This document shows positions 33,250-58,416 of a DNA stretch of 64,000 bases, piece by piece. Each line of letters starts with the position of its first letter. Position 1 is the first letter of the stretch. The stretch covers positions 1-64,000 of the forward strand of contig NZ_ATYR01000033.1 of NCBI RefSeq assembly GCF_000427785.1, written 5' to 3'. This DNA comes from Massilia alkalitolerans DSM 17462. GTDB lineage: Bacteria; Pseudomonadota; Gammaproteobacteria; Burkholderiales; Burkholderiaceae_D. The notes beneath the pieces were generated by a model. The model worked only from the letters and a program-made list of their open reading frames with translations. It did no database searches and was not told where the DNA came from. The position numbers and the translations under genes were made by a program.

Positions 33250-33278
33250 GTATCGGATTGGCCAAAAATATGATTGGA
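33250..33278 (+). promoter_or_regulatory. Shared locus operator, copy 1 (TonB receptor)
   Basis: GTATC-N13-ATATGATTGGA, 95 bases before the TonB receptor start. The same 29-base architecture occurs before the arabinonate dehydratase (40776) and ytfQ (52760) genes. The flanks are a partial dyad: the reverse of the right half is TCCAATCAT. Confidence 0.7.
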
Positions 33279-33373
33279 ACGGTCTCGATGCTAGGCCTAC
33301 CATTCCTGTCGAGCATGTAATAACAGCAAAGCCGCGGCACAGCGGCGATAACGACAACGACATCAGGAGACGT

Positions 33374-36268
33374 ATGAAACGCACATCATTCGGCCGCGCC
33401 GCGGCCAGTACCGGTCACGCCTTCGCACTTCGCGCCACGGTCGCCGCACTCGCCGGAGCAGGCCTGATGAGCGCCGCCACGGTCGGCGCCCAGGAGATTT
33501 CCCCCGCGGCCGCCGGAACGACGGAGCCGAGTGATACGCAGACCGTGGTCGTCACGGGCGTCCGGGCATCGCTCATCAAGAGCCTGGCGATCAAGCGCAT
33601 CAGCGACCAGGTCGTGGAATCGGTCGTGGCCGAAGACATCGGCAAGCTCCCCGATAACAATGTCGTCGAAGCGCTGCAGCGCGTGACGGGGATCCAGGTC
33701 ACCAACCGCGCCGGCGGTGAAGTCGGCGCCTTGTCGATCCGTGGCCTGCCCGACGTCCAGACTACCTGGAATGGCCGCAATATCTTCACCGCCTCGGGCA
33801 CGCAGGTCGCGCTCCAGGACATTCCCTCGACCCTGGTGCGCCAGATCGACGTCTACAAGACGCGCGACGCCAGCCAGCTGGAAACCGGGATCGCAGGCCA
33901 GATCGACGTCAAGTCGCTGCGGCCCTTCGATTTCAAGGGACCGCAAGTGTCGATTACGGCGCGCGAGACCTATCTGGATCCAGCTAAAAAATGGAACCCG
34001 CAGCTCAGCGCCATGTTCAGCAACCGCTGGGAAACCGGCTTCGGCGAGGTCGGCGCCCTGGTCAACCTGGCGGCCACCCAGACGCGATACCGCAACGAAA
34101 GCGTGACGCCGGGCGCCATGGTGCCGTTTACCAGCCCGAATGCGGCCGAAGTGCCGGCAGGGTATACGCCTTTGCAGCGCATCACCGACAACAATATCTG
34201 GGCGCCCGGTACCCGTACCGGCTTGCCGATGGCAGCGGGTTCGACGCTGGATTTCAACGGCAAGGCGCATCCTTATTACCTGGCGCGCGACGCCGTTTTC
34301 CAGAGCGACGTCCAGGGTGAACGCAAGCGTCCTGCCGCGAATATCGCCCTCCAGTGGAAGCCGAACGCCGATGCGGTCTACACCTTCGAATCGATGTACA
34401 ACGGTTATCGCGACAAGGCCTTCAATCAGCTGCTGTTCAGCTTTGTCGACTGGTGGGGCGATCTGGGCAGCAATCCGGCGGGGACGATCACGACCTTCCC
34501 GGGAACGAACGTCATCAAGACCCGCAAGGTCAACAACGTCTACGGCTTCAACAGCGGCGACTACACCACGTCGAAAACCGATTCCTTCGTCTATGCCCTG
34601 AACGGCAAGTGGAATGTCGGCGAGCGCCTGAAGCTGGACGGTGATCTGTCGTTCCAGACGAGCGAGTTCGACACGCAATTCACCGCCACCCGGATCGATC
34701 GCGTGGCACCGTCCATCGACGTCGACTTCAATGCCGGCGGCGATACGGCCTTCCGCTTCAATAACAATGCCGACCTGGCCGACCCGACCAAGTGGAATGT
34801 GGCGGAGTTCTACGACAACGCCAACCGCAACAAGGGCAGCGCCGCGACGGCCACGCTGGCGGGCGTGTTCGATGCCGACTGGGGCGCGCTGCAGACGCTC
34901 CAGTTCGGCGCGCGCCACGACGTGCGCAAGGCCTCGGAGGCGAACCGGACCCAATCGGCCTTCCTGGGCCGCAACCTGGCCTCGCTGGGGCCGCAGTATT
35001 CCATCACCAACTCCAACTTCGGCGCCGACATCTCGGACGTTCCGCGCTCGTGGGTGGAACCGAATGCCTATTACATCCGCGACAACATCGACGAGTGGCG
35101 CAAGCTGTATCACTCGGTCAACAGCAACTTCCTGACCACCGACCAGCTGCGCCTGCAGAAGACCTTCGAGATCGAGGAAAAGACGAGCAATCTCTACCTG
35201 ATGGGGAATTTCCAGAGCGAGCTGTTCGGCAATCGCCTGCGCGCCAATGTCGGCGTGCGCTACACCAAGGTCGATACCGACATGACTTTCTATAAGGTCG
35301 ATGCCACCACAAAGGCGGTCACGCCGTCCGGCGCCGACAAGTCGACCAGCAGGTTCCTGCCCAGCCTGACCCTGACCTACGATCCGGCCAAGGACGTCGT
35401 GACGCGCTTCAACTTCGGCAAGACCCTGCGCCGCCCGAACTTCGGCGACCTGAATCCCGTCCTGCAACTGGCCGACGACGTGTCGCGGGTGGGTTATGGC
35501 TCGGGCACCGGCGGCAATCCGGACCTGAAACCGACGCTCTCGACCAACTTCGACCTGACCGGCGAGTGGTACTTCCAGAAAGACAGCGCAGTCTACGGCA
35601 CTGTATTCAAGCGCAAGATCGACGGCCTGGTCGTGCCCCTGCGCCGCAAGATCCACGTCGACCCGGCGGACGACCCGTTCCGCAACTCGACCTCGGGCGG
35701 CGACCATACCAACGGCTATGACTACGTCATCAACTCCCCGGTCAACGCCTCCGACGGCACCATCAAGGGCGTCGAACTCGGCCTGATCTACTTCCCGAAG
35801 TGGCTGCCAAGCCCGCTGGACGGCCTGGGCTTCCAGGGCAGTTTTACCAAGCTGAGCTCCTCGCAGAACGTTCCCGAGGCGAATAGTGCCGGCGAAATCA
35901 TCGCCCAGCTCGAGACGCCGTTCTTCGGGGTGTCCGACCGCTCGTACAACGCCACCCTGGCTTACGAAAAGGGCCCGGTCAGCGCGCGCCTGTCCTATGT
36001 CTGGCGCTCCGCCTTCCTGGCCACCAACGAAGCCGCCCTGTTTGCCAACCCGATCGGCATCTGGCGCCAGCCCGAGAAGAGCGTGGACATGCAGGTCTCC
36101 TACAAGGTCAACGACAGGATGTCGGTCGATGTCGGCGCCATCAACCTGACCAACGAAATGCAGCGGCAGTACTACCACTTCGGCAATGCGGGTAACGAGC
36201 AGTTGACCAATTTCGGTACGGTCCAGGTCGGACGTTCGGTCTCGGTCGCCTTGCGCTGGAAGATGTAA
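33374..36268 (+). CDS. TonB-dependent outer-membrane receptor for glycan oligosaccharides
   Basis: A 964-residue TonB-dependent transporter. It has a signal peptide (residues 1-40, ending SAATVGAQ), a TonB-box-like TQTVVVTG near residue 57, the plug domain (about 75-190, LPDNNVVEALQRVTGIQV and SIRGLPDV) and a long beta-barrel ending in an aromatic-type C-terminus (VSVALRWKM). The family is common in glycan-using bacteria with large oligosaccharide ligands. Context gives arabinan or arabinogalactan oligosaccharides as likely cargo. Start ATG 33374 follows CAGGAGACGT. The shared operator lies upstream. Confidence 0.93.
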   Translation: MKRTSFGRAAASTGHAFALRATVAALAGAGLMSAATVGAQEISPAAAGTTEPSDTQTVVVTGVRASLIKSLAIKRISDQVVESVVAEDIGKLPDNNVVEALQRVTGIQVTNRAGGEVGALSIRGLPDVQTTWNGRNIFTASGTQVALQDIPSTLVRQIDVYKTRDASQLETGIAGQIDVKSLRPFDFKGPQVSITARETYLDPAKKWNPQLSAMFSNRWETGFGEVGALVNLAATQTRYRNESVTPGAMVPFTSPNAAEVPAGYTPLQRITDNNIWAPGTRTGLPMAAGSTLDFNGKAHPYYLARDAVFQSDVQGERKRPAANIALQWKPNADAVYTFESMYNGYRDKAFNQLLFSFVDWWGDLGSNPAGTITTFPGTNVIKTRKVNNVYGFNSGDYTTSKTDSFVYALNGKWNVGERLKLDGDLSFQTSEFDTQFTATRIDRVAPSIDVDFNAGGDTAFRFNNNADLADPTKWNVAEFYDNANRNKGSAATATLAGVFDADWGALQTLQFGARHDVRKASEANRTQSAFLGRNLASLGPQYSITNSNFGADISDVPRSWVEPNAYYIRDNIDEWRKLYHSVNSNFLTTDQLRLQKTFEIEEKTSNLYLMGNFQSELFGNRLRANVGVRYTKVDTDMTFYKVDATTKAVTPSGADKSTSRFLPSLTLTYDPAKDVVTRFNFGKTLRRPNFGDLNPVLQLADDVSRVGYGSGTGGNPDLKPTLSTNFDLTGEWYFQKDSAVYGTVFKRKIDGLVVPLRRKIHVDPADDPFRNSTSGGDHTNGYDYVINSPVNASDGTIKGVELGLIYFPKWLPSPLDGLGFQGSFTKLSSSQNVPEANSAGEIIAQLETPFFGVSDRSYNATLAYEKGPVSARLSYVWRSAFLATNEAALFANPIGIWRQPEKSVDMQVSYKVNDRMSVDVGAINLTNEMQRQYYHFGNAGNEQLTNFGTVQVGRSVSVALRWKM

Positions 36269-36292
36269 GCCGCAGCCGCTGAAGTAAAAGCA

Positions 36293-36325
36293 GGGGCACT
36301 GCAGGATTGGATCCGGCAGTGCCCC
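36293..36325 (+). terminator. Hairpin after the TonB receptor gene
   Basis: GGGGCACTGC (36293-36302) and GCAGTGCCCC (36316-36325) pair perfectly with a 13-base loop, without a T tract. It may terminate or attenuate between the receptor and the symporter gene. Confidence 0.5.
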
Positions 36326-36349
36326 CGGGTCGTTCGGAAGGGAATGCAC

Positions 36350-37702
36350 ATGCACACACAAAAACTCTCCACCCTCGAAAAAGCGGGTTTCGGCGCCGGC
36401 GACATGGCGCTCAACGTGGTGATCTCGTCGATGATGCTGATCATTACCTTCTTCTATACCGACATCTACGGCATCCACACCGCCGACCTGGCGGCCCTGT
36501 TCGTGGCCGTCAAGGTGGTGGGCGCCGTGGCCGACCTGGCGATGGGGCAGGTGACCGACTCGGTGCTGACGCGCTGGGGGCGCTACCGGCCCTGGTTGCT
36601 GCTGCTCGCCGTGCCCTACGGCCTGAGCGTGTTCCTGGTGTTCTCCACGCCCGACTGGGGCTATGACGCCAAGCTGGTCTGGGCCTACTCGACCTACATC
36701 CTGATGACCCTGATGACGGCGGGCGTCGGCATTCCCTACATCTCGCTGATCAGCGGCCTTACCTCGGACCCGCAGGAACGCCTGTCGGCCAATGGCTACC
36801 GCCTGTTCTTCGCCAAGATCGGCGCCTTCATGGTGACCATCATCGTGCCGATGCTGGCCAGCTGGTGGGACCCCGGCAACCAGGCCGCCGGCTACCAGGC
36901 CGCGATGGCGGTGATGGCGGCAATGGGCGTGCTGCTGTTCCTGCTGTGCTTCTTCACCACCACCGAGCGCGTCGTCCACAAGGTCGAGAAGCAGCCCTTG
37001 ATGGACCAAGTGCGCGTGCTGATGCAGAACGACCAGTGGCTGATCCTGTGCGCGGTGTGTGTGACCGGCACCATCGGCTACGTGATCCGCGGCTCGGTGG
37101 CGATCTACTACGCCAAGTATTACCTGGGCGGCGACACGGCTACCGTCTCGGCCTTCCTGTCCACGGGCGTGGCGGCGGCGATCCTGGCCATGGTGGTGTC
37201 CACCTGGACCACCAAGTTCTATTGCAAGGTCAAGCTGTTCCGCAACACGCAGATCCTGGTCGCCGTGATCAGCCTCCTGATCTACTTCCTGGTCAAGCCG
37301 GGCGACATCGTGCTGGCCTTCGTCCTGTACTTCATCCTGTCGCTGGTGGTGGACCTGCACGCCCCGGTGTTCTGGTCGGCGATCGCCGAGACCATCGACT
37401 ACGGCCAGGTCAAGACCGGCAAGCGTGTGTCGGGCTTTGCTTTCGGCGGCATCTCGGTGTGCCAGAAAGCGGGCATGGCGGTCGCGGGCGGCATGGTCGG
37501 CATCCTGCTGGATTACTTCCAGTACCAGCCGAACCAGGAGCAGTCGGCGCTGGCGCTGCAGGGCATCGCCCTGATGCTGTCGGTGATCCCGGGCTTCTTC
37601 CACTTCCTGATGGGCGTGCTGATGTTCAAGTACCGCATCAGCGACAGCTATTACGACACGGTCAAGGCCGACATGCGCACGGCCGGGTACGTCGCCGGCT
37701 GA
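36350..37702 (+). CDS. GPH-family (glycoside-pentoside-hexuronide) cation symporter
   Basis: A 450-residue, 12-helix inner-membrane symporter of the GPH group (MelB, XynP, YicJ). Features are the N-terminal GFGAGDMALNVVISS, the helix 2 region DLAMGQVTDSVLTRWGRYRP and the C-terminal half ETIDYGQVKTGKRVSG, a strong GPH signature. It would bring disaccharides or short arabino-oligosaccharides from the periplasm into the cytoplasm, where the signal-less GH43 next door could act. ATG 36350 is spaced better from GGAAGGG than ATG 36344. Confidence 0.92.
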   Translation: MHTQKLSTLEKAGFGAGDMALNVVISSMMLIITFFYTDIYGIHTADLAALFVAVKVVGAVADLAMGQVTDSVLTRWGRYRPWLLLLAVPYGLSVFLVFSTPDWGYDAKLVWAYSTYILMTLMTAGVGIPYISLISGLTSDPQERLSANGYRLFFAKIGAFMVTIIVPMLASWWDPGNQAAGYQAAMAVMAAMGVLLFLLCFFTTTERVVHKVEKQPLMDQVRVLMQNDQWLILCAVCVTGTIGYVIRGSVAIYYAKYYLGGDTATVSAFLSTGVAAAILAMVVSTWTTKFYCKVKLFRNTQILVAVISLLIYFLVKPGDIVLAFVLYFILSLVVDLHAPVFWSAIAETIDYGQVKTGKRVSGFAFGGISVCQKAGMAVAGGMVGILLDYFQYQPNQEQSALALQGIALMLSVIPGFFHFLMGVLMFKYRISDSYYDTVKADMRTAGYVAG

Positions 37703-37809: not shown

Positions 37810-37838
37810 GATAAACAAACTTTGAAACGAGATTGACG

Positions 37839-38789
37839 ATGCAAGAAACCATTCTGAAACCCCTGATCGAACAGCGCGCCGACCCCTATATCTACAAGCA
37901 CACTGACGGCTACTACTACTTCACCGCCTCGGTGCCGCAATACGACCGCATCGAGCTGCGCAGCGCCGGCACCATCGCCGGCCTGGCGCAGGCCCGGACC
38001 GTGGACGTCTGGACCAAGCCCGACACCGGCCCGTACTGCGAACTGGTGTGGGCGCCGGAGATCCATTTCAACCAGGGGGCCTGGTACATCTATTTCGCCG
38101 CGGCCCCGAGCCGCGAGATCAAGCACAAGCTGTTCCAGCACCGCATGTACGCGATCCGCAACCAGAATGCCAATCCGCTCGAGGGCGAATGGGAGTTCAT
38201 GGGCCAGGTCGACACCGGCATCGACAGCTTCTGCCTGGACGCCACCACCTTCACCCACAAGGGCCAGTTGTACTACCTGTGGGCGCAGAAGGACCATGAG
38301 ATCGAGGGCAACTCCAACCTCTACATCGCGCCGATGAAGACGCCGTGGCAGATCGAGGGCAAGCCGGTCATGCTCAGCAAACCCGAGTTCGACTGGGAGA
38401 CGCGCGGCTTCTGGGTCAACGAAGGCCCGTCGGTGGTGCGCCGCTACGGCAGGATCTTCATCAGCTACTCGGCCAGCGCCACCGACGAGAACTACGCGAT
38501 GGGCCTGCTGTGGGCGGACCAGGACGCCGACCTGCTCGACCCCGGCTCCTGGACCAAGTCGCCCGAGCCGGTGCTGCGCACCTGCTACGAGCACGGCATC
38601 TACGGTCCGGGCCACAACAGCTTCACCTATGCCGAAGACGGCGAGACCGTGATGCTGGTCTACCACGCCCGCACCTACACCGAGATCGTCGGCGATCCGC
38701 TGTGGAACCCGGACCGTCACACCTTCGTGAAAGCCCTGCGCTGGGACGCAGACGGCATGCCGGTATTCGGCCGGCCATCGACCAACTGA
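37839..38789 (+). CDS. Cytoplasmic GH43 glycosidase (arabinofuranosidase/xylosidase type)
   Basis: A 316-residue GH43 five-bladed propeller without signal peptide. Catalytic acids are visible as Asp in RADPYIYK (base, near residue 14), Asp in CLDATTF (near 132) and Glu in VNEGPSV (near 195). Being cytoplasmic and directly after the GPH symporter, it likely finishes imported arabino- or xylo-oligosaccharides to monosaccharides. ATG 37839 is preferred over the TTG two codons earlier. Confidence 0.88.
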   Translation: MQETILKPLIEQRADPYIYKHTDGYYYFTASVPQYDRIELRSAGTIAGLAQARTVDVWTKPDTGPYCELVWAPEIHFNQGAWYIYFAAAPSREIKHKLFQHRMYAIRNQNANPLEGEWEFMGQVDTGIDSFCLDATTFTHKGQLYYLWAQKDHEIEGNSNLYIAPMKTPWQIEGKPVMLSKPEFDWETRGFWVNEGPSVVRRYGRIFISYSASATDENYAMGLLWADQDADLLDPGSWTKSPEPVLRTCYEHGIYGPGHNSFTYAEDGETVMLVYHARTYTEIVGDPLWNPDRHTFVKALRWDADGMPVFGRPSTN

Positions 38790-38812
38790 GCCACCAACCG
38801 AGGAAGAACGTC

Positions 38813-39883
38813 TTGCGAGACCTGAGCAACCGCGGCATCACCCAGGCGCCCTATGGACGGCTGGCAAACGGCCAGGCCATCACCGAATTCACACTGGCCA
38901 ACGCGAACGGCCTGGTGGCCAAGATCATCGATTTCGGCGGCATCATCACCGCGCTGCACGCGCCCGACCGCGAGGGGCGCTTGGCCGACGTGGTGCTGGG
39001 CCTCGACACGCTGGCCGATTATGAAGGCGAGAATCCCTACTTCGGCGCCCTGATCGGACGCTATGGCAACCGCATCGCCCATGGCCGCTTCACGCTCGAC
39101 GGCCGCGACGTCGTGCTGCCGGCGAACGACGGCGAGAACCACCTGCACGGCGGCCCCAAGGGCTTCCACAAGGTCAAGTGGCAGGCCAGCGTGGAGGGCG
39201 ACAGCCTGCGCCTGGCCTACCGCAGCGTCGACGGCGAGCAGGGCTATCCCGGGAACCTGGATACCGTCGTCCACTACCAGCTGAACGACGACAACGAGCT
39301 GGTGGTGCGCTTCGAGGCCACGACCGACCGGCCGACGCCGGTCAACCTCACCCAGCACAGCTACTTCAACCTGGCCGGCGAAGGCGACATCCTCGAGCAC
39401 CTGCTTACCATCGACGCCGATACCTTCGTAGGGATCGATGCCGCATCGATCCCCCTGGGGACCTTGTCGCCGGTCACCGGCACGCCCTTCGATTTCCGCA
39501 CGCCGCGCCCGATCGGCGAGCGCGTCGGCCAGCCGGACAAGCAGCTGCGCCATGGCCAGGGCTACGACCACAACTTCGTGCTCAACAAGCCGAACGGCCC
39601 CGAAATGACGCGCGCCGCCCACGTGCTCGAACCGGTGTCGGGCAGGGTGCTGGAGCTGTTCACCGAGGAGCCGGGCGTGCAGTTCTACAGCGGGAACTTC
39701 CTGGACGGCTCGCTATCCGGCAAGGGCCGCAGCTACGGACACCGCAGCGGCTTCTGCCTGGAACCCCAGCATTTTCCGGATTCGCCGAACCGCCCGCGCT
39801 TCCCGAACGTGATCCTGCGCCCGGGCCAGGTGTACCGGACCGAGTCGCGCTTCCGCTTCTCGGTGCAGGGAGCCGAGGCATGA
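38813..39883 (+). CDS. galM: Aldose 1-epimerase (galactose mutarotase family)
   Basis: A 356-residue mutarotase interconverting alpha and beta sugar anomers. Family motifs are GGIITALHAPDREG, GRYGNRIAHGRF, NDGENHLHGGPKGFHK, LTQHSYFNLAGEG (catalytic His near 180) and EEPGVQFYSGN (catalytic Glu). No ATG exists in frame near the start, so TTG 38813 after AGGAAG is chosen. It precedes the lactonase gene with a 4-base overlap and probably supplies the anomer for L-arabinose oxidation. Confidence 0.92.
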   Translation: MRDLSNRGITQAPYGRLANGQAITEFTLANANGLVAKIIDFGGIITALHAPDREGRLADVVLGLDTLADYEGENPYFGALIGRYGNRIAHGRFTLDGRDVVLPANDGENHLHGGPKGFHKVKWQASVEGDSLRLAYRSVDGEQGYPGNLDTVVHYQLNDDNELVVRFEATTDRPTPVNLTQHSYFNLAGEGDILEHLLTIDADTFVGIDAASIPLGTLSPVTGTPFDFRTPRPIGERVGQPDKQLRHGQGYDHNFVLNKPNGPEMTRAAHVLEPVSGRVLELFTEEPGVQFYSGNFLDGSLSGKGRSYGHRSGFCLEPQHFPDSPNRPRFPNVILRPGQVYRTESRFRFSVQGAEA

Positions 39884-40767
39884 TGGAGCACTTCCTCGAC
39901 AATCGCCATGAGCTGGGCGAATGCGTGCTGTGGTGCGAGCGCACCGGGCGCCTGCTGTGGACCGATATTCCGCAGGCGACCCTGTGGTCGTATTCGCCGG
40001 CCAGCGGCAGGAGCGTAAAGTGGCCGATGCCGGAGCGCCTGTGTTCCTTCGCGCTGACCGGCAGCGACGATTGCCTGCTGCTGGCGCTGGCCTCCGGCCT
40101 GGCTTTTTTCCGCTTCTCGACCGGCGAGGTAGTGCGCATCGTGGATGTCGAAGCCGACATCCCGGCCACCCGCATCAACGACGGGCGTTGCGACCGCCAG
40201 GGCCGCTTCGTGTTCGGCATGTTCAACCAGGAAGACGGTCCAAAGCGCGCGCTGGGCGGCTTCTACCGCCTGAATACGGACCTGAGCCTCGAGCGCCTGC
40301 CGCTCGGGAATGCCGCCATTGCCAACAGCATCTGCTTCAGCCCGGACGGGCAGCGTATGTACTACGCCGACTCCGTCACGCGCGAGATCCGCTATTGTCA
40401 ATACGACCCGGGCAGCGGCGCGATCGGCGCCACGCAGGTGTTGGTGCCGGCCGACGCGGCGCCGGGGGAGCCGGACGGCTCCTGCATCGATGCCGAAGGC
40501 TGCCTGTGGACCACGCGCTGGGGAGCGGGGCAGGTGATGCGCTTCGCCCCCGACGGCCGGCTGGACCGGGTATTGACGCTGGCCGCGCCGCAGCCGAGCT
40601 GCCCGGCCTTCGGCGGGCCGGACTTCTCGACCCTGTATGTCACCAGCGCCTGGCTCGGCATGACAGGGGGCGACCGCGCCGCCGCGCCCCTGTCGGGCGC
40701 TATGTTCCACCACGCGCTGGAGGTCCGAGGCCTTCCCGAATCGCGCTTTCTCGGCGCTTTCAGATAA
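39880..40767 (+). CDS. SMP-30/gluconolactonase family lactonase, likely L-arabinonolactonase
   Basis: A 295-residue six-bladed propeller hydrolase. The metal ligand set is visible: Glu in ELGECVLW (near residue 14), Asn in TRINDGRCD (near 99), Asn in IANSICFSPDG (near 147) and Asp in PDGSCIDAEG (near 198). It would open L-arabino-gamma-lactone to L-arabinonate, the step before the dehydratase. Its ATG overlaps the mutarotase stop. Substrate is inferred from neighbours. Confidence 0.9.
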   Translation: MMEHFLDNRHELGECVLWCERTGRLLWTDIPQATLWSYSPASGRSVKWPMPERLCSFALTGSDDCLLLALASGLAFFRFSTGEVVRIVDVEADIPATRINDGRCDRQGRFVFGMFNQEDGPKRALGGFYRLNTDLSLERLPLGNAAIANSICFSPDGQRMYYADSVTREIRYCQYDPGSGAIGATQVLVPADAAPGEPDGSCIDAEGCLWTTRWGAGQVMRFAPDGRLDRVLTLAAPQPSCPAFGGPDFSTLYVTSAWLGMTGGDRAAAPLSGAMFHHALEVRGLPESRFLGAFR

Positions 40768-40775
40768 CGAATTTA

Positions 40776-40804
40776 GTATCAATATTGCGAAATATTTGAT
40801 TGGA
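40776..40804 (+). promoter_or_regulatory. Shared locus operator, copy 2 (arabinonate dehydratase)
   Basis: GTATC-N13-ATTTGATTGGA, 98 bases before the dehydratase start, differing from copies 1 and 3 at one base of the 16 conserved positions. The AT-rich patch contrasts strongly with the GC-rich flanks. Confidence 0.7.
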
Positions 40805-40902
40805 AAGTTATCTGGTCAGCTTTTAGACTTGCCTCATTGCTGAACAACACGACATGAGAGGGGGTAACCAGCCTCCCGTGGCGGAAACAACGAGGAGAAG
40901 GC

Positions 40903-44614: not shown

Positions 44615-44682
44615 TTCCCGCGAAGGCGGGAATCCAAGTTTCTCTGCACGCCACGAAATTGGGCTCCCGCCTGCGCGGGAGC
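44615..44682. repeat. Paired short hairpins of a dispersed REP-like element
   Basis: TTCCCGC/GCGGGAA (44615-44632) and GCTCCCGC/GCGGGAGC (44663-44682) form two small stems facing each other. The words resemble common betaproteobacterial intergenic repeats, though only this copy is in the window. It lies in the SDR-GH97 gap. Confidence 0.55.
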
Positions 44683-44700
44683 GACGTACCAGGAACGCCT

Positions 44701-46629
44701 ATGACCGCTCTGACCCGCACCACCCTGGCGCTCGTCGCCATCTTCAGCACCCAGGCGCACGCCGCCGCCCTGACCAGCCCGGACGGCCACATTTCCGTGA
44801 CCGTCAGCGCCGCATCAAACGGCACGCTCAGCTACGCCGTCGCCCGCCACGGCAAACCCGTCATCCTCCCGTCGCCGCTCGGCTTGCGCCTGGAAGGCGC
44901 CGACCTTGCGACCGGGCTCAAGATCGCCGCCACCTCCGCGATCAAGCCGGTCCGCGACAGCTATGAGCTTGCCACCGGCAAGAAGCGCCACATCAGCTAC
45001 GCCGCGAACGAGCAGGTCTACACCGTGCGCAACGCCCGGGGTCAGGCCATGGACCTGGCTTTCCGCGTCTCGAACGACGGCGTCGCCTTCCGCTATCGGG
45101 TAGCCGAGCCGGCGCTGCCGCACAAGAAGTTCATCTCCGAGGCCACCGGCTTCAGCTTCGACAAGTCCGCCAAGGCGTGGCTGCAACCAATGGCGGTGGC
45201 GCAAACCGGCTGGTCGAACACCAACCCGTCCTACGAAGAGCACTACCAGCGCGAGATCGCGGTCGGCACCCGGTCCCCGATGCCCGCCGGCTGGGTGTTC
45301 CCGGCCCTGTTCCGCAGCGGCGACACCTGGGTGGCGCTGACCGAGGCCAACATGGACGGCAGCTTCCACGCCTCGCGCCTCGACGCCGAATCGCCGGAAG
45401 GCCGCTACCGGTTAGCCCCTCCCATGGCCGCCGAAGTGTTCACCAACGGCGCGCTGCTCGCGGAAAGCCGTGGCGAGCTGGTGACGCCCTGGCGGGTGAT
45501 CGCGCTCGGTTCGATGAAGACCCTGGTCGAATCGACGCTCGGCACCGACCTGGCCGCTCCAGCCATTGCTTTCGACAAGGCGCGCGTCCAGCCCGGCCAT
45601 GCCTCGTGGAGCTGGGCGCTGCTGAAGGATGAGGGCACCGTCTTCGAGGTCCAGAAGAAGTTCATCGACTACGCAGCAGACATGCGCTGGGAGTACACCC
45701 TGGTGGACGCCGGCTGGGACCGCAGTATCGGCGACGCCAAGATGCGCGAGCTGGTGCAGTACGGCGCCAGGAAGAACATCGGCATCCTGGTCTGGTACAA
45801 CTCGTCGGGCGACTGGAACAAGACCCCGTTCACCCCGAAAAGCGCCTTGCTCACCCGCGAAGCGCGCAGCCGCGAATTCGCGAAGCTGGTCGAGATGGGC
45901 GTCAAGGGCGTCAAGATCGATTTCTTCGCCGGCGACGGCCGGTCGATGATCGCCTACTACGTCGACATCCTGGAGGATGCCGCCAAGGCGGGCCTCCTGG
46001 TGAACTTCCACGGCGCCACGCTGCCGCGCGGCTGGTCGCGCACCTACCCGAACCTGATGACCGTGGAGGCGGTGCGCGGCTTCGAATTCACCACTTTCGA
46101 ACAAAGCGACCAGGACGCGGTTGCTCCCCATGCCGCGATGCTGCCGTTCACGCGCAACCTGTTCGACCCGATGGACTTCACCCCCACCGTGTTCGGCGAC
46201 ATCCCGAAGATCCAGCGCAAGACCCGCAACGGCTTCGAGCTGGCCGAGTCGGTGCTGTTCCTGTCCGGGATCCAGCATTTCGCCGACACGCCGGAAGGCA
46301 TGGCCACCGCCCCGGCCTACGTGAAGGGCTTCCTGCAGGACCTGCCGCGCAGCTGGGACGAGACCCGCTTCGTCGATGGCTACCCGGGGCGCCATGTCGT
46401 GATCGCACGCAGGGCAGGGAAGACCTGGTACGTGGCCGGCCTGAATGCCGACGCAGCCGACAAATCGCTCGAGCTGGACCTGTCCTTCGTCGGGAAAGCG
46501 GGCGGCACCCTCATCACCGACGGCGAGGGCGAGCGCGCCTTCAGCCAGTCGCGCTTCACTGGCAGCAAGGGCGGCAAGCACAAGATCAGTATCAAAGCGC
46601 ACGGCGGCTTCGTCGCCGTATTCCAATAA
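44701..46629 (+). CDS. Glycoside hydrolase family 97, exported
   Basis: A 642-residue GH97 enzyme with signal peptide (residues 1-21, LVAIFSTQAHA). The N-terminal beta-sandwich (about 24-270) begins LTSPDGHISVTVSA. The (beta/alpha)8 barrel (about 275-545) contains YTLVDAGWD and the segment GVKIDFFAGDG near residue 405, where the Asp matches the nucleophile of retaining GH97 members. The C-terminal sandwich ends HGGFVAVFQ. GH97 includes alpha-galactosidases and a bifunctional beta-L-arabinopyranosidase/alpha-galactosidase. The latter fits an arabinose locus, but this is inference. Confidence 0.9.
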   Translation: MTALTRTTLALVAIFSTQAHAAALTSPDGHISVTVSAASNGTLSYAVARHGKPVILPSPLGLRLEGADLATGLKIAATSAIKPVRDSYELATGKKRHISYAANEQVYTVRNARGQAMDLAFRVSNDGVAFRYRVAEPALPHKKFISEATGFSFDKSAKAWLQPMAVAQTGWSNTNPSYEEHYQREIAVGTRSPMPAGWVFPALFRSGDTWVALTEANMDGSFHASRLDAESPEGRYRLAPPMAAEVFTNGALLAESRGELVTPWRVIALGSMKTLVESTLGTDLAAPAIAFDKARVQPGHASWSWALLKDEGTVFEVQKKFIDYAADMRWEYTLVDAGWDRSIGDAKMRELVQYGARKNIGILVWYNSSGDWNKTPFTPKSALLTREARSREFAKLVEMGVKGVKIDFFAGDGRSMIAYYVDILEDAAKAGLLVNFHGATLPRGWSRTYPNLMTVEAVRGFEFTTFEQSDQDAVAPHAAMLPFTRNLFDPMDFTPTVFGDIPKIQRKTRNGFELAESVLFLSGIQHFADTPEGMATAPAYVKGFLQDLPRSWDETRFVDGYPGRHVVIARRAGKTWYVAGLNADAADKSLELDLSFVGKAGGTLITDGEGERAFSQSRFTGSKGGKHKISIKAHGGFVAVFQ

Positions 46630-46654
46630 GAGTTCGACAGAACAGGAGACAGTA

Positions 46655-48199
46655 GTGAACGTATTCAAACCGACCATCCTCGCGCTCAGCGTCCTTGCAT
46701 CGGCCTCGGCCTTCGCCCAGGTGAACGTGAGCATCGACGCCACCAAGCCTGGCCCGGTGATCAACAAGAACGTCTACGGCCAGTTCGCCGAACACCTCGG
46801 CACCGGCATCTATGAAGGCCTGTGGGTGGGTCCGGACTCGAAGATCCCGAACACCCGCGGCTGGCGCAACGACGTGGTCGGCGCCCTGAAGGAACTGAAG
46901 GTCCCGCTGGTGCGCTGGCCGGGCGGCTGCTTCGCCGACGAATACCACTGGCGCGACGGCATCGGCCCGCGCAACAAGCGTCCGGTGAAGGTCAACACCC
47001 ACTGGGGCGGCGTGGCCGAGGACAACGCGGTCGGCACTCACGAGTTCTTCGACCTGGTTGACATCCTCGGCACCGAAGCCTACGTCAACGGCAACCTCGG
47101 CTCCGGCACCCCGCAGGAGATGGCCGAGTGGCTCGAGTACATGACCTCGGACAGCAAGTCGACCCTGGCCGAGCAGCGCCGCAAGAACGGCCGCAAGGAA
47201 CCGTACAAGGTCGCCTTCTTCGGCGTCGGCAACGAAGCCTGGGGCTGCGGCGGCAACATGAAGCCGGAATACTACGCGAACCTGTACAACCACTACGCCA
47301 CCTTCCTCAAGACCCCGCCGAATGCGCGTCCGAAGATGGTCGCCAGCGGCGGCCACAGCGACGACACCACCTGGACCGACGTCCTCAGCCGCGAGAGCGC
47401 CAAGTTCACCGACGGCATCAGCTTCCACTTCTACACGCTGCCGACCGGCGAGTGGGACAAGAAGGGCGCCGCGACCGGCTTCACCGAATCGGAATGGTTC
47501 AAGACCCTGCAGCAGACCATGCGCATGGATGGCTTCATCCGCCGCAACGTCGCCGTCCTCGACAAGAACGATCCGCAGAAGAAGCTCGGCTTCTACGTCG
47601 ACGAATGGGGCACCTGGTACGACGTCGAGCCGGGCACCAACCCTGGCTTCCTGTTCCAGCGCAACACCCTGCGCGATGCGGTCGTGGCGGCGCTGAACTT
47701 CAACATCTTCCATGCCCACGCCGAGCGCGTCCGCATGACGATGATCGCGCAGATGGTCAACGTGCTGCAGGCGATGATCATCACCGACAAGGACAAGATG
47801 CTGCTGACCCCGACCTACCACGCCTACAAGATGTACATCCCGTTCCAGGACGCGACCTCGCTGCCGACGGCCGTGAACAATGACGTGGCCTACTCGGTGG
47901 ACAACGCGAGCCTCCCGGGCATCAGCGCATCGAGCGCGCGCGGCAAGGATGGCAAGGTCTACGTGGCCCTGGTGAACACCAATCCGAACCAGGCCAGCGA
48001 CGTGAACATCGACCTGAAGGGCCAGGCCGCGACCGGCGCCACGGGGCAGGTGCTGACTGCCGAGGCGATGGATGCGCACAACACCTTCGACAAGCCGCAG
48101 GCCATCAAGCCGGCCCCGTACAGCGCTAAGGCGGTCAATGGCAAGCTGACGCTGAAGGTGCCGGCCAAGTCGGTGGTGGTCGTGTCGGTAGACGCGTAA
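46655..48199 (+). CDS. GH51 alpha-L-arabinofuranosidase, exported
   Basis: A 514-residue GH51 retaining enzyme releasing terminal L-arabinofuranose. The signal peptide is residues 1-21 (TILALSVLASASAFAQ). The acid/base Glu is at 194 in GVGNEAWG and the nucleophile Glu at 317 in YVDEWGTWY. Other family stretches are NVYGQFAEHLG, VRWPGGCFAD and FNIFHAHAERVRM. The start codon is GTG at 46655 after CAGGAGAC. Most GH51 enzymes are cytoplasmic, so an export signal points to work in the periplasm or outside. Confidence 0.94.
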   Translation: MNVFKPTILALSVLASASAFAQVNVSIDATKPGPVINKNVYGQFAEHLGTGIYEGLWVGPDSKIPNTRGWRNDVVGALKELKVPLVRWPGGCFADEYHWRDGIGPRNKRPVKVNTHWGGVAEDNAVGTHEFFDLVDILGTEAYVNGNLGSGTPQEMAEWLEYMTSDSKSTLAEQRRKNGRKEPYKVAFFGVGNEAWGCGGNMKPEYYANLYNHYATFLKTPPNARPKMVASGGHSDDTTWTDVLSRESAKFTDGISFHFYTLPTGEWDKKGAATGFTESEWFKTLQQTMRMDGFIRRNVAVLDKNDPQKKLGFYVDEWGTWYDVEPGTNPGFLFQRNTLRDAVVAALNFNIFHAHAERVRMTMIAQMVNVLQAMIITDKDKMLLTPTYHAYKMYIPFQDATSLPTAVNNDVAYSVDNASLPGISASSARGKDGKVYVALVNTNPNQASDVNIDLKGQAATGATGQVLTAEAMDAHNTFDKPQAIKPAPYSAKAVNGKLTLKVPAKSVVVVSVDA

Positions 48200-48205
48200 G
48201 GCTTT

Positions 48206-48347
48206 CCGTAGGGTGGACGGCTCCGCCGTCCGCGCGTTCAAATCACGGTTGCGGGCCACGCGCATGTTTGGTCCCGCATAGGGTGGTTGAACGCGCGGAG
48301 TGATCTGGTCCAGTGGACCAGATCACAAAGACCCGTCCACCCTACGG
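48206..48347. repeat. Nested inverted-repeat element with perfect 15-bp ends
   Basis: Ends CCGTAGGGTGGACGG (48206-48220) and its exact reverse complement (48333-48347) enclose CGCGCGTTCAA (48231-48241) / TTGAACGCGCG (48287-48297). They also enclose a 25-base perfect palindrome (48301-48325; arm TGATCTGGTCCA). It has a MITE-like shape without coding capacity. Related copies are at 37712-37809 and 73-187. Confidence 0.85.
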
Positions 48348-48371
48348 GTCGCGACAATTCAGGAGTTTGCA

Positions 48372-49388
48372 ATGTCTTTACTCTCACGCCTCAGCGCGGG
48401 CGTGCTGGCGCTCGCCACCGCGCTCCCTGCCTCCGCCGCCCAACTCGAAGTCCACGACCCCGTGATGGCGAAAGAGGGCGGCAAGTACTACCTCTTCAGC
48501 ACCGGCCCCGGCATCACCCTCTACAGCTCGGCCGACATGAAGTCGTGGAAGCCGGAAGGCCGCATCTTCGCCGGCCAGCCCACCTGGGCCAGGACGGCGG
48601 CGCCGACCTTCAACGACCACATCTGGGCACCGGACATCTACCACTACAACGGGAATTACTACCTGTACTACTCGGTGTCGGGCTTCGGCAAGAACACCTC
48701 CGGCATCGGCGTGACGGTCAACACCACGCTCGACCCGCGCTCGCCGAACTACAAGTGGGAAGACCAGGGCATGGTGCTGCAGTCCATCCCGGGCCGCGAC
48801 CTGTGGAACGCGATCGATTCGCACGTGATCGACGACGAGAACGGCACGCCCTGGATGTCCTTCGGCTCCTTCTGGACCGGCCTCAAGCTCGTCAAGCTCG
48901 ACGCCAGCCGCACGGAGCTGGCCGAACCGCAGGAATGGCACACCATCGCCCGCCGCGACCGTCCGGCTTTCGTACCGGACGAAGAGGCCGGTCCGGCCCA
49001 GATCGAGGCGCCTTTCATCTTCAGGAAGAACGGCTGGTACTACCTGTTCGCTTCCTGGGACCTGTGCTGCAAGGGCAAGGACAGCACCTACAAGGTCGTG
49101 GTCGGCCGCGCCAAAGCCATCACCGGCCCCTACCTCGACCGCCAGGGCGTGGACATGGCCAAGGGCGGCGGTACGCTCGTCATCCAGGGCGACCGCGATT
49201 GGAAGGGGCTGGGCCACAACAGCGCCTATACCTTCGACGGCAAGGATGTCATGGTGCTGCACGCCTATGAAAGCGCCGACCGCTACAAGCAAAAATTGAA
49301 AGTGCTGGAGATGAAGTGGGACGGCGACGGCTGGCCGCTCGTCGACCAGTCTGAACTCAACCGTTACCAGAGCGTCCGCCTGCCATGA
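48372..49388 (+). CDS. GH43 arabinan endo-1,5-alpha-L-arabinanase-like, exported
   Basis: A 338-residue exported GH43 (signal residues 1-22, LALATALPASAA). The base Asp is in VHDPVMAK (near 28), the pKa-modulating Asp in NAIDSHVID (near 154) and the acid Glu in AQIEAPFIF (near 213). With HIWAPDIYHYNGNYYLYYS the domain resembles endo-arabinanases. It would cut the 1,5-arabinan backbone for the GH51 and other enzymes. The stop overlaps the GH127 start (ATGA). Ribosome site AGGAG. Confidence 0.9.
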   Translation: MSLLSRLSAGVLALATALPASAAQLEVHDPVMAKEGGKYYLFSTGPGITLYSSADMKSWKPEGRIFAGQPTWARTAAPTFNDHIWAPDIYHYNGNYYLYYSVSGFGKNTSGIGVTVNTTLDPRSPNYKWEDQGMVLQSIPGRDLWNAIDSHVIDDENGTPWMSFGSFWTGLKLVKLDASRTELAEPQEWHTIARRDRPAFVPDEEAGPAQIEAPFIFRKNGWYYLFASWDLCCKGKDSTYKVVVGRAKAITGPYLDRQGVDMAKGGGTLVIQGDRDWKGLGHNSAYTFDGKDVMVLHAYESADRYKQKLKVLEMKWDGDGWPLVDQSELNRYQSVRLP

Positions 49389-51730
49389 AGCTCCGTCTCG
49401 CCGCACTTGCCTTGCTCGTATCGACCGCCTGGGCCCAGGCGGCCGAGTTGTTCCCCCTGGCCGACGTGTGCCTGAAGCCCGGCCCCTTCCTCGACGCCCA
49501 GGCCACCGACCTGAACTACATGATGGCGATGGAGCCGGACCGCCTGCTGGCGCCCTTCCTGCGCGAGGCCGGCTTGAACCCGCGCCAGCCGAGCTACGGC
49601 AACTGGGAATCGACGGGGCTCGACGGCCACATGGGCGGCCACTACCTGTCGGCGCTGGCGCTGATGTATGCCGCGACGGGTGACACCGAGGTGCTGCGCC
49701 GCCTGAACTACTTCGTGGCGGAACTCAAGCGCGCGCAGGGAGCGAACGGCGACGGCTATGTCGGCGGCATTCCCGGCGGACGCCAGGCCTGGCGCGACAT
49801 CGCGGCGGGCAAGCTGGAGGCCAGCAACTTCTCGGTCAACGGCAAGTGGGTCCCCTGGTACAACCTGCACAAGGTCTACGCGGGCCTGCGCGATGCCCAC
49901 CGCTACGCCGGCAACGAGGATGCCCGCGCGATGCTGATCTCCCTGTCTGACTGGGCGCTGCGTCTGAGCGCGCATTTGAGCGAAGAGCAGATGCAGCAGA
50001 TGCTGCGCGCCGAGCATGGCGGCATGAACGAGATTCTCGCCGACGTGGCGCAGATGACCGGCGACGATAAATACCTTGCGCTGGCGCTGCGCTTTTCGCA
50101 CCAGGCTGTGTTGCAGCCGCTGGCGCAAGGGCAGGACAAGCTGACCGGCCTGCATGCCAACACCCAGATTCCGAAAGTAATCGGCTTCAAGCGCATCGCC
50201 GACATGACTGGGCGCCAGGACCTGGACCGGGCCGCGCAATTCTTCTGGCAGACGGTGGTCGAGCGCCGCTCGGTGGCCATCGGCGGCAACAGCGTCAAGG
50301 AGCACTTCCACGACACTGGAGACTTCGGTTCCATGATTGGCGAGGTCGAAGGGCCCGAGACCTGCAACACCTACAACATGCTCAAGCTGACGGGCATGCT
50401 GTTTCAGTCGGAGCAGAAGGGCAGCTATGGCGACTACTACGAGCGCGCGCTGTACAACCACATCCTGTCCTCGCAGCGCCCGGAGGGCGGCTTCGTCTAT
50501 TTCACGCCGATGCGGCCGAATCACTACCGTGTGTATTCGCAGGTCGACAAGGGCATGTGGTGCTGCGTCGGCTCAGGCATCGAGAGCCACGCCAAGTACG
50601 GCGAATTCATCTACGCGCACGAGGGCGACGCGCTGTTCGTGAACCTGTTCATCCCCTCGACGCTGCACTGGCGCGAGAAGGGCGTGCGCATTACCCAGTC
50701 GACGCGCTTCCCGGACGAGGGCAGCACCCGGCTGACGGTGGACGAGCCGGGCAGCTTCACCATGAAGATCCGCTATCCGGGCTGGGTCGCGGCCGGCAAG
50801 CTGGTGGTGAAGGTGAACGGCAAGGCGGTGAAGCTCGATGCGGCGCCGGGCGGCTACGTGAGCGTCGCGCGCGCGTGGAAGAAGGGCGACCGGGTCGACG
50901 TGCAGCTGCCGATGAGCACGCGCCTGGAGCAGATGCCGGACAAGTCGAACTACTACGCCGTGCTGCACGGCCCGATCGTGCTGGCCGCGAAGACGCGCAT
51001 GTTCGGCGACGAGGGGCTGAATTTCCTGGCCGACGAGTCGCGCATGGGCCACATCGCGGGCGGGCCGGTGTGTCCGCTGGAGGCGGCGCCGATGCTGGTG
51101 AGCGACTCGCTCGAGTTCCTGCGCCGCTTCAAGCCAGTGAAAGGCAAGCCGTTGACCTTCACGGCCCCGGGGCTGGTGCAGGGCGCCGCGGGCAGCGCGA
51201 CCGAATTCATTCCCTTCTTCCGCCTGCACGAGTCGCGCTACACGATGTACTGGCAGCATTCGACGCCGGCTGATTTCGAGCGCATGCGGGCCGAGAATGC
51301 CGCGCGCGAAGCGGACCGGCTGGCGCTGGACGCCCGTACCATCGACCAGGTGGCGCCGGGCGAGCAGCAGCCGGAGTCGGACCATTTCTTCAAGGGCGAG
51401 GGCATCGATGCGGGCGTGAACGGCGGACGCCACTGGCGCCATGCAAGCAAGTGGTTCAGCTATGAGCTGAAGGATCCGAAAGGGGAGGCGAAGCTGCTGC
51501 GGCTGAGCTTTGCTCGGGCCGATGCGGGACGGCGCTTCGATATCGAAGTCAATGGCGTGCTGCTGGCCGAAGTGACGCTTGCCAAGGATGCCGCCCAGGA
51601 GTTCTACACCGTCGACTACGCGCTGCCGGCGGCCATCCTGCAGGCCAAGCCGAACGCGTTGTCGGTGCGCTTCGTGGCCAAGCCGGGATCGGTGGCCGGC
51701 GGGCTGTACGGGCTGCGCCTGCTGCGCTAG
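49385..51730 (+). CDS. GH127 beta-L-arabinofuranosidase, exported
   Basis: A 781-residue enzyme with signal peptide (residues 1-19). The (alpha/alpha)6 barrel carries the GH127 zinc-cysteine site: Glu325 and Cys327 in EGPETCNTYNML and the pair Cys393/Cys394 in MWCCVGSG. In characterised HypBA1 a Zn-bound Cys of such a pair is the nucleophile. Beta-sandwich domains follow, including a C-terminal extension (about 680-781) that may bind sugar. The natural substrate class is beta-linked L-arabinofuranose in hydroxyproline-rich glycoproteins and some pectins. It is coupled to the upstream GH43. Confidence 0.93.
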   Translation: MKLRLAALALLVSTAWAQAAELFPLADVCLKPGPFLDAQATDLNYMMAMEPDRLLAPFLREAGLNPRQPSYGNWESTGLDGHMGGHYLSALALMYAATGDTEVLRRLNYFVAELKRAQGANGDGYVGGIPGGRQAWRDIAAGKLEASNFSVNGKWVPWYNLHKVYAGLRDAHRYAGNEDARAMLISLSDWALRLSAHLSEEQMQQMLRAEHGGMNEILADVAQMTGDDKYLALALRFSHQAVLQPLAQGQDKLTGLHANTQIPKVIGFKRIADMTGRQDLDRAAQFFWQTVVERRSVAIGGNSVKEHFHDTGDFGSMIGEVEGPETCNTYNMLKLTGMLFQSEQKGSYGDYYERALYNHILSSQRPEGGFVYFTPMRPNHYRVYSQVDKGMWCCVGSGIESHAKYGEFIYAHEGDALFVNLFIPSTLHWREKGVRITQSTRFPDEGSTRLTVDEPGSFTMKIRYPGWVAAGKLVVKVNGKAVKLDAAPGGYVSVARAWKKGDRVDVQLPMSTRLEQMPDKSNYYAVLHGPIVLAAKTRMFGDEGLNFLADESRMGHIAGGPVCPLEAAPMLVSDSLEFLRRFKPVKGKPLTFTAPGLVQGAAGSATEFIPFFRLHESRYTMYWQHSTPADFERMRAENAAREADRLALDARTIDQVAPGEQQPESDHFFKGEGIDAGVNGGRHWRHASKWFSYELKDPKGEAKLLRLSFARADAGRRFDIEVNGVLLAEVTLAKDAAQEFYTVDYALPAAILQAKPNALSVRFVAKPGSVAGGLYGLRLLR

Positions 51731-51737
51731 CGGCGCT

Positions 51738-52628
51738 TCAGGCGCGCATCGCCAGCGTCGTCTTGCAGCGCGGGTAGTAGATGCAGCCCCAGAATGCGCC
51801 GCGCTTGCTGTCGCGCGCGACCATGTTGGTGCCGCAGGAGGCACAGGTCGGTGTGCGGTAGTCGCCTTCGAAGGCGACGTCGAGCAGCGCCTTCTGCTTG
51901 TCGAGCGGGAGGTCGAGGATTTTCTTGACGAACGCGTCGCCGTCGAGCAGCTGGAGCGGGTTCGCCGCGCCGAACTGCAGCGCGTCCGGCGTATAGCTCC
52001 CGGTGGTGACGAAGATGCCTCTCCCGACGCCTTCGTGCACCATCACGCCGAGCAGCTCGCGAACTTCCTTGACCCCGACCGGATGGGTATTCCAGGCCTT
52101 GCACTGAACGATCGCCAGCGGTTTCGCCGGATCGACCTTGAACAGCTTGACGTCGATGCCACCGTCCGGCCCCGCGGCCAGGGTCGCCGTGGTAAAGCCG
52201 ACGGCTTCGTAGTACCTGGCGCAGAGCAGCTCGAAGCGCTTCCATTCCAGCATGCGCAGCGCCTCGCTCGACCACAGCGTTGGTGCAGCGGGGAGGCGCG
52301 TCGGTCCCGGCTTCTGGGCTGGCACCGCATCGGGTACGACACGCATGCGCGCACGCTCCCGGCTGGATCCGGATCGATGGTCTGACCCTCGAAACCCGGT
52401 ACGCAGCGCCGCCAGCACTGCCATGAAGGCCAGGGCGACGAAAACGATCCAGGACAGCGCGTCGAGATCCGGTTTCAGTGCCGACAGCGGCCCGCGCTCG
52501 GGCAGAAAACCCGGCAGTATCCAGCGGACGCCGAAGAAGGCGCTGACTGCGAGCGCGGCGCTGAACTGCCAGGGCAGCGCGACCAGATCGTTGACCAAAC
52601 CCTTGTTTCTGCGGCTACCCATATCCAT
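51738..52628 (-). CDS. Membrane-anchored Mrr-like restriction endonuclease with C4 zinc finger
   Basis: A protein of about 296 residues. It has two N-terminal membrane helices (about 22-38 and 59-76), an Mrr-type PD-(D/E)xK nuclease domain (GPDGGIDVKL with Asp near 159, then QCKAW with Lys near 177), and a C-terminal topoisomerase-type zinc finger (CASCGTN and PRCK, about 268-292). It resembles the broad group of restriction-endonuclease-domain membrane proteins of unknown role. It reads against the sugar genes and separates GH127 from the ABC importer. The start is uncertain (52628, 52622 or 52712). Confidence 0.85.
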   Translation of the reverse strand: MDMGSRRNKGLVNDLVALPWQFSAALAVSAFFGVRWILPGFLPERGPLSALKPDLDALSWIVFVALAFMAVLAALRTGFRGSDHRSGSSRERARMRVVPDAVPAQKPGPTRLPAAPTLWSSEALRMLEWKRFELLCARYYEAVGFTTATLAAGPDGGIDVKLFKVDPAKPLAIVQCKAWNTHPVGVKEVRELLGVMVHEGVGRGIFVTTGSYTPDALQFGAANPLQLLDGDAFVKKILDLPLDKQKALLDVAFEGDYRTPTCASCGTNMVARDSKRGAFWGCIYYPRCKTTLAMRA

Positions 52629-52759
52629 TCCATGTTGTCGTATGGAAATAATAGTAGTCGAGTATGCAGAAGTTGTCCCTGCTGAATCAGTCTCAACCCC
52701 GTTTTGATGCATCTTGCATGCAAGGAACGAATGGTTCGAAGGTAGTGATATCGAATCCG

Positions 52760-52788
52760 GTATCTACTCAAGCACAAATATGATTGGA
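52760..52788 (+). promoter_or_regulatory. Shared locus operator, copy 3 (ytfQ operon)
   Basis: GTATC-N13-ATATGATTGGA, identical to copy 1 at all 16 conserved positions, 55 bases before the ytfQ start. The left flank AATCCG and right flank ATCAG extend the dyad. Confidence 0.72.
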
Positions 52789-58412: not shown

Positions 58413-58416
58413 CCTG

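Follow-up and report, generated by a model that had tools for sequence, protein, structure and literature searches.

The L-arabinose locus and its three promoter copies

A stretch of 64,000 nucleotides from Massilia alkalitolerans DSM 17462 (contig NZ_ATYR01000033.1, positions 1 to 64,000, forward strand; referred to below as the window) contains three copies of a 29-bp promoter pattern that begins with GTATC. It is highly probable from sequence comparison that these copies are the common control region of a local L-arabinose/arabinan regulon, worked by the LysR-type activator encoded at 58417-59358. Exact copies of the 29-mer were present at 33250..33278, 40776..40804 and 52760..52788, all on the + strand, precisely where the original prediction had placed them. 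The distances from their ends to the start codons (33374, 40903 and 52844) were 95, 98 and 55 bases, in agreement with the predicted 55 to 100 bases, and the surrounding DNA was AT-rich as claimed, with GC contents of 0.49, 0.37 and 0.40 for copies 1, 2 and 3 versus 0.675 for the window.

Each 29-mer was found to lie within a larger arrangement. Copy 1 had an upstream dyad GATAC-N8-GTATC at 33237..33254, recognized in the sequence and centred on the conserved position -4.5, which is the predicted LysR recognition site. It was followed by a second element GATTG-N5-GTCTC at 33272..33286 (conserved columns 22-36), the predicted activation site, and by a predicted -35 box TTGGAA, an 18-bp spacer and a -10 box TACCAT at 33274..33303 (conserved columns 24-29 and 48-53). 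The sequence of copy 2 contained the dyad GATAA-N8-GTATC at 40763..40780, one base off GATAY, the second element GATTG-N5-TTATC at 40798..40812 and a predicted TTGGAA, 18-bp spacer and TAGACT at 40800..40829. In copy 3 the corresponding parts were GATAT-N8-GTATC (52747..52764), GATTG-N5-GCATC (52782..52796) and a predicted TTGGAT, 18-bp spacer and TACGAT (52784..52813).

The genes assigned to the copies in what follows are encoded on the + strand. The first gene past copy 1 encodes a TonB-dependent receptor (33374..36268; PF00593/PF07715, TIGR01782), followed by a glycoside-pentoside-hexuronide (GPH) symporter (36344..37702; PF13347, TIGR00792), a GH43 glycosidase (37833..38789; PF04616), an AraM-like aldose 1-epimerase (38747..39868, matched region only; 67% identical to L148:2711-3811, PF01263) and a sugar lactonase of the SMP-30 type (39880..40767, start approximate by alignment; PF08450). 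A 529-aa open reading frame (ORF) at 39178-40767, with the lactonase domain in its second half, was considered as a lactonase/epimerase fusion and rejected, since the epimerase is read in a different frame and ends just ahead of the lactonase. Copy 2 precedes a dehydratase of the L-arabinonate type (IlvD/EDD; 40903..42645; PF00920/PF24877), which scored 835.6 bits with PRK13016, slightly under the cut-off of 882. Downstream of it were a GguC/AraD1 family protein (42712..43704; NF040903, 522.5 bits, cut-off 340), an SDR dehydrogenase resembling sugar 1-dehydrogenases (43768..44535; PF13561, NF053674 under cut-off) and, according to Pfam, GH97, alpha-L-arabinofuranosidase, GH43 and GH127 glycosidases (44659..51730).

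Copy 3 precedes a sugar ABC importer of the ytfQ-ytfR-ytfT-yjfF type (52844..57372; Pfam), a further GH43 glycosidase (57399..58361; PF04616) and the gene of the LysR-type regulator, the predicted binder of all sites (58417..59358; PF00126, E 7.4e-20; PF03466, E 1.6e-34). The importer belongs to the same family as YtfQ-YtfR-YtfT-YjfF of E. coli; however, the window YtfQ reached only 396.8 bits with NF041827, under the equivalog cut-off of 510, so that galactofuranose is not required as its cargo. Judging from the gene neighbours, arabinose or arabinofuranose is the more likely cargo. Taken together, the locus looks like one for arabinan and L-arabinose uptake and oxidative degradation.

Two other genes were noted. 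Between the dehydratase and importer sets lies a gene (51738-52712, - strand) for a protein that combines an Mrr-type nuclease domain with a topoisomerase zinc ribbon, and a malic enzyme with a phosphotransacetylase domain (59378-61696) starts about 20 bases past the LysR gene on the same strand.

Occurrence in the window and in the genome

When up to 3 mismatches were allowed, precisely the same three 29-mers were found in the window, while dinucleotide shuffles gave a mean of 0.16 and none of 100 reached three. The whole genome (6,111,684 bases, 75 contigs) contained 3 exact copies and 11 matches with 3 mismatches; at 1 or 2 mismatches there were none. A control with the pattern written backwards gave 4 matches at up to 3 mismatches. 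All three genome copies stand ahead of genes of one pathway.

The ytfQ promoters that went into a profile (R1) numbered 24 and came from other species, with the window sequences excluded. In the M. alkalitolerans genome it ranked the three copies first, at 52743 (E 1.5e-14), 33235 (E 1.2e-7) and 40761 (E 4.4e-6), followed by a weaker site on another contig (E 1.0e-3) and a last one with E 0.4. In the window the matrix gave 79.3, 51.6 and 47.3 bits, and the runner-up scored -4.1. Many matches at random positions had been set beforehand as the outcome that would speak against the prediction; the scan gave three strong matches in 6.1 Mb. A search for tandem repeats between 32000 and 53000 detected two short arrays, none of them at any copy.

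The weaker fourth site (L129, contig C8 of the genome, about 11833-11909) has the form GATACC..ATATCGG..AAAAAGTTATTGGT. It precedes an ORF with an alpha/beta-hydrolase domain, and a chemotaxis receptor gene lies on its upstream side.

Structure of the promoter module

Conservation was calculated over 41 non-redundant sites, taken as the one best site per locus, less than 85% alike and picked by the matrix. The conserved unit is a promoter module of about 67 bp, and the 29-mer is its middle. Conservation began sharply at position -13, counted from the first base of GTATC, extended to the -10 box at about +53 and then faded. Upstream of -18, beyond the matrix, the bins contained 0.09-0.13 bit per base; on the downstream side the values were 0.43 bit in 50-59, 0.51 in 60-69, 0.24 in 70-79 and 0.10 in 80-89. 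The unit of 29 bp originally proposed was thus too short, as the conserved block runs from -13 to about +53.

The consensus reads GATAYC-AAA--G-RTATCG, seven variable bases, CAAAAAW, TGATTGGAT--RTATC, a T-rich stretch and CCTAnnAT. The order of parts is the dyad GATAY-N8-RTATC, an A-tract, the second element GATTG-N5-RTATC lying over the -35 box TTGGAW, 18 bp, and the -10 box TAnnnT. GTATC is the right arm of the upstream dyad, and ATWTGATTGGA is the left part of the second element together with the -35 box. Exact GATAY-N8-RTATC occurred twice in the window, in copies 1 and 3, copy 2 having GATAA. The spacer of the 29-mer had been described as constant in length and free in sequence; the constant length holds, whereas positions 14-18 form a conserved A-tract in the orthologues.

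In an unguided dyad scan the upstream dyad, with its centre at -4.5, came out on top with scores of 7.77 (10 pairs) and 7.92 (12 pairs). The second element, centred at 29.0, was the runner-up with 4.45 and 5.10, respectively. The loose dyad that had been read from the two halves of the 29-mer (centre 13.0) was outside the ten best with 10 pairs; with 12 pairs it was third at 5.09, practically tied with the second element. Such a likeness would be given by the facing arms of two neighbouring sites, although the scan alone does not separate this dyad from the second element. A single 29-bp operator with the halves GTATC and TGATTGGA was set aside, since the conserved block already starts at -13 and by far the stronger symmetry is that of the upstream dyad.

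In each of the three window copies 18 bases separate the hexamer TTGGAW (24-29) from TAnnnT (48-53), and the pair fits a -35 and a -10 box. With a transcription start predicted about 7 bases past the -10 box, the centre of the upstream dyad would be near -64 and that of the second element near -31. The recognition and activation sites of LysR-type activators are usually found near such places, with recognition around -65 and the second site over the -35 box. By the predicted start site, and with a second element that is weakly dyadic, the module has the two-site geometry of a LysR-type activator.

Conservation in related genomes

A search with the LysR protein gave 185 loci, of which the best 80 were analysed; they came from Massilia, Telluria, Janthinobacterium, Duganella, Pseudoduganella, Undibacterium, Rugamonas, Roseateles and relatives. 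Loci had to show a full ytfQ start, defined by more than 70% identity and a start no later than residue 14; of the 80 loci, 69 passed. All 69 had a matrix match of at least 20 bits upstream of ytfQ. The matrix had been trained on 24 of them, leaving 45 independent loci, many of them closely related to each other or to the training set. Among the 11 loci outside the filter, three (L065, L109 and L121) nonetheless had a site of at least 20 bits, and the other eight (L064, L097, L098, L100, L102, L107, L114 and L115), all of which had failed the ytfQ filter, had no site at that threshold. Five of six Roseateles-group loci scanned had a site of 22-44 bits, and L115 had none.

The motif precedes ytfQ in the LysR loci, and in the genomes of the genus it also precedes dehydratase genes and TonB or symporter genes. 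Among 61 genus genomes (G000-G060) a profile match ending 25-126 bases upstream was present for all 39 ytfQ orthologues and all 39 dehydratase orthologues (at least 87% identity); an absence of conservation in orthologous promoters had been named beforehand as a refutation. Dehydratase paralogues of about 48% identity in the same genomes had no profile match (0 of 3), and direct scans upstream of them gave at best -12.9 bits. The regions ahead of four dehydratase homologues (62-65%) from other families likewise lacked a site (best -13.2 bits). In three of the four genomes concerned no LysR was matched at E 1e-60; G082, the remaining one, encodes a LysR homologue (53%) at another location, and a site of 18.4 bits directly follows that gene. 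Matches to a relaxed 29-mer (2 mismatches) on the strand opposite to the LysR reading frame and within it, seen in many loci of Janthinobacterium and its relatives, were taken as chance.

Further sites were seen in related genomes ahead of TonB receptors (L130, L142, L160) and ahead of genes for a GH43 glycosidase, an MFS transporter and a GH39 glycosidase (L134, L135, L139). These sites beyond the three standard promoters make it probable that other species have a larger regulon. An additional site with 2 mismatches (L045, position 10947) was seen in Massilia agri directly past the LysR gene, 111 bases ahead of a GH43 gene.

A second class of sites, of the TTATTGGT/TTATTGGA type and with a common downstream block, was observed ahead of ORFs of 962-1085 codons (L137, L138, L140, L146, L151, L152, L155, L156, L157, L159, L161). 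The one ORF checked with Pfam, that of L138, encodes a TonB receptor. The eight genomes with such sites each contain a LysR paralogue of 40-41% identity, and a similar site ahead of a TonB receptor gene (L136, genome G045) was found in a genome without such a paralogue match. The second class is possibly the operator of the LysR paralogue.

The LysR-type regulator and its own start region

The PDB relatives listed for the window LysR are LysR-type regulators, and the protein is 97% identical to the LysR of Massilia agri and of two further Massilia strains. Among the 61 genus genomes, a LysR orthologue was present in 39 (as a fragment in G054), sites with E<=0.01 in 40, and both in 39. Pfam analysis of 27 ORF readings between 32 and 64 kb of the window, which did not include every ORF, detected no other regulator. 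A second LysR-type gene was recognized by homology at 26060-26851 (- strand), with 25% identity to an Azospirillum LysR (E 1.8e-17); Pfam found nothing in 25944-26909 (- strand), the frame of which differs from that of the LysR-type match.

The start region of the LysR gene contains a dyad of its own, GATAT-N8-ATATG (58391..58408, + strand), at -26 of the LysR start. It overlaps the extended -10 box TGATATGAT at 58402-58410, six bases ahead of the LysR ATG, and is a predicted autoregulatory site. In 45 of 81 loci a relaxed form of this dyad (RATRY-N8-RTATN) was found no more than 45 bases ahead of the LysR start, in 34 of them exactly at -26 and in 6 at -32 of the aligned start. The background was 63 in 32,501 tiles, and none of 69 control regions ahead of other genes contained it. 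No ribosome-binding site was visible by eye before the LysR ATG. This absence, together with an extended -10 box lying over the dyad, makes a leaderless, self-repressed LysR transcript plausible.

Distant relatives and known systems

The distant set consisted of five stretches, out of 75 plasmid records, with a LysR homologue of 42-59% identity. In four of the five the top matrix matches were located ahead of the divergent or the next gene and were well above the next match. The Paraburkholderia stretch gave 30.5 and 8.6 bits versus -12.4 for the next match, the Comamonadaceae stretch 15.5 versus -14.0 and the Caballeronia stretch 24.0 versus -15.8. In the Azospirillum stretch 20.7, 6.6 and 3.5 bits were obtained versus -19.7, ahead of chvE, a lactonase gene and ytfQ. 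Taken by themselves, the lower scores among these four stretches are weak.

In the Halomonas stretch (L169) the gapless matrix gave no match, the best score being -6.7 bits. It is nevertheless no clear negative, because the region separating the LysR gene from the divergently read epimerase gene holds the sole exact GATAY-N8-RTATC of the 18,918 bases. For comparison, 41 exact dyads occurred in 1,577,756 bases of L044-L123, with the true sites counted in. A second part, ATTGG..TTATG, follows toward the epimerase, one base further than in Massilia; it was noticed by eye, after the fact. An importer and an IlvD/EDD dehydratase are found near the LysR gene in the window and in L169, L170, L171 and L172.

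A passage on Halomonas AraR, a regulator of the LysR family with a motif of its own, describes it as the predicted control of divergent, araM-led genes for oxidative L-arabinose use and an importer (PMC5507952). The L169 LysR homologue (42%) sits in the same setting as in that passage, with a divergent epimerase, a periplasmic sugar-binding protein, a dehydratase of about 80% identity and GguC. In contrast, the sites in the window would control a TonB receptor, arabinan glycosidases and a YtfQ-type importer.

GbpR of Agrobacterium and Azospirillum is likewise of the LysR type and regulates the sugar-binding protein genes chvE/sbpA of a periplasmic importer for arabinose and galactose; the window LysR is the predicted regulator of a sugar importer as well. 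According to the respective text passages, GbpR regulates chvE of Agrobacterium when sugars are present (PMC4086400), and in Roseobacter a putative gbpR lies beside sbpA and araC (PMC3141670).

The Azospirillum LysR encoded beside chvE-mmsA-mmsB is 42% identical to the window LysR, and its stretch has the same two-site architecture. It is annotated as LysR family in the record, and we infer from its place beside chvE that it is GbpR. When it was used as a query against the M. alkalitolerans genome, the window LysR was the best match (E 5.4e-72) and the next had E 4.4e-22; the reverse search for this pair covered plasmid records.

The best NCBIfam model for the window LysR was that of PcaQ (182.9 bits), also a LysR-type regulator of catabolism; the score is far under the cut-off of 303.8 bits, however, and PcaQ serves a different pathway. 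By these comparisons the regulon appears to be of the GbpR and Halomonas AraR kind, and those two are its known kin. A description of the Massilia regulon was not found in the titles, beginnings of abstracts and passages of the open-access papers searched.

Discussion

The LysR protein encoded at 58417-59358 had been suggested as the regulator of the three sites, and its co-occurrence with them, the architecture beside its distant relatives and, as the strongest further argument, the site at its own start support this suggestion well; it is the likely regulator, with binding to the sites predicted. What was observed directly is the set of sites with its conservation and geometry, as well as the link between these sites and the LysR gene.

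Several observations weigh against this assignment. Within the genus, ytfQ and the dehydratase gene were each present in 39 of the 61 genomes, with nearly the same distribution as the LysR gene, and the co-occurrence is partly confounded since the three genes are gained and lost as one block. Genome G017 (L148, L149) has an arabinose locus with three good sites (73.8, 49.8 and 42.2 bits), and no LysR orthologue was found in its assembly of 150 contigs with 7% contamination, where the best match had 31% identity; either the assembly has a gap there or the regulator has been replaced.

Dyad symmetry in the second element is weak: two pairs are formed in 41 of 41 sites, the third in 20 and the inner ones in 0 to 7. 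In the upstream dyad the invariant T (-11) and A (2) are separated by 12 bases, differing from the T-N11-A core of LysR recognition sites, which is a tendency and no strict definition. Conservation within the block is partly due to selection, as the sites were picked with the matrix. When a stricter form of the dyad was required within 90 bases of the LysR start, only 29 of the 81 loci had it, and in three of these it was at other positions; the background was 81 in 16,302 tiles. Finally, two of the three Azospirillum matches (6.6 and 3.5 bits) are low in absolute score.

Some of these points would fit a true common operator that is bound by another regulator, whether a remote paralogue of LysR or a protein from a different family, with the neighbouring LysR as a bystander. 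G017, with its three sites, speaks for this. Several genus genomes encode paralogues of about 40% identity and also carry a similar second class of sites, and M. alkalitolerans itself has further LysR-type genes, such as that at 26060-26851 (- strand) in the window. Yet its genome contains no second close LysR (one match at E <1e-60) and has the three sites all the same. A dyad of the same shape is present at a fixed distance from the regulator's own start in many loci, the architecture tracks this LysR across families and classes, and the Pfam-scanned ORF readings included no other regulator. Control by a different protein is therefore regarded as rather unlikely.

It is very improbable that the copies are just three similar core promoters in AT-rich DNA with no dedicated operator. 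The right half of the 29-mer does hold a -35 box, which in every copy is followed, after a spacer of 18 bp, by a -10-like hexamer. However, the dyad located 20-37 bp above the -35 box and the A-tract are conserved as strongly as the promoter boxes themselves, and a bare promoter would be expected very often, whereas the profile gave its three strong matches in the whole genome. On these two grounds a core promoter alone was rejected. A generic sigma-70 scan, moreover, reported no promoter in 52600-52900; the same result was obtained for 57350-61850.

Recent duplication of one promoter, or a mobile repeat, is equally improbable as the origin of the copies: the geometry is fixed across about 67 bp at three places, and related genomes have additional copies ahead of TonB receptors, glycosidases and a transporter, but the spacers and flanks differ between the copies (by eye, with no formal flank comparison), so that a mobile repeat is not supported, and the copies resemble those of the same gene in other species, the dehydratase copy being identical over 29 bases in G046.

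Control by the LysR protein at 58417-59358 thus remains the preferred explanation, and the following mode of action is proposed. A LysR tetramer would occupy both the upstream dyad and the second element. Upon binding of arabinose or a pathway intermediate, the grip of LysR on the downstream site would shift and RNA polymerase would be recruited. The TonB receptor gene, ytfQRT-yjfF and the dehydratase genes with the glycosidase genes would then be turned on together. We infer the operon limits and transcription starts in this scheme, as well as binding, activation and the effector. The dyad over the extended -10 box of the LysR gene would fit repression of its own promoter. The claim that uptake across the outer membrane, uptake across the inner membrane and catabolism are under one switch is in good agreement with the sequence data.

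A wider view can be offered only tentatively. Alpha-, Beta- and Gammaproteobacteria may have retained one LysR operator-promoter cassette, with a geometry that is fixed between the upstream dyad and the -10 box, and new genes may have received copies of it; in Massilia it would have recruited outer-membrane TonB receptors and arabinan glycosidases. A sister cassette (AAAAAATTATTGGT) would belong to the LysR paralogue, and the probably leaderless promoter of the regulator would be blocked by the same dyad.

For Massilia, Janthinobacterium, Duganella and their relatives, the analysis yields a specific and testable regulator-operator pair for the oxidative use of arabinose and arabinan. It links an outer-membrane receptor, an inner-membrane importer and catabolic enzymes to a single predicted regulator. 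The module is also a candidate arabinose-responsive promoter, and further members of the regulon can be looked for from sequence alone.

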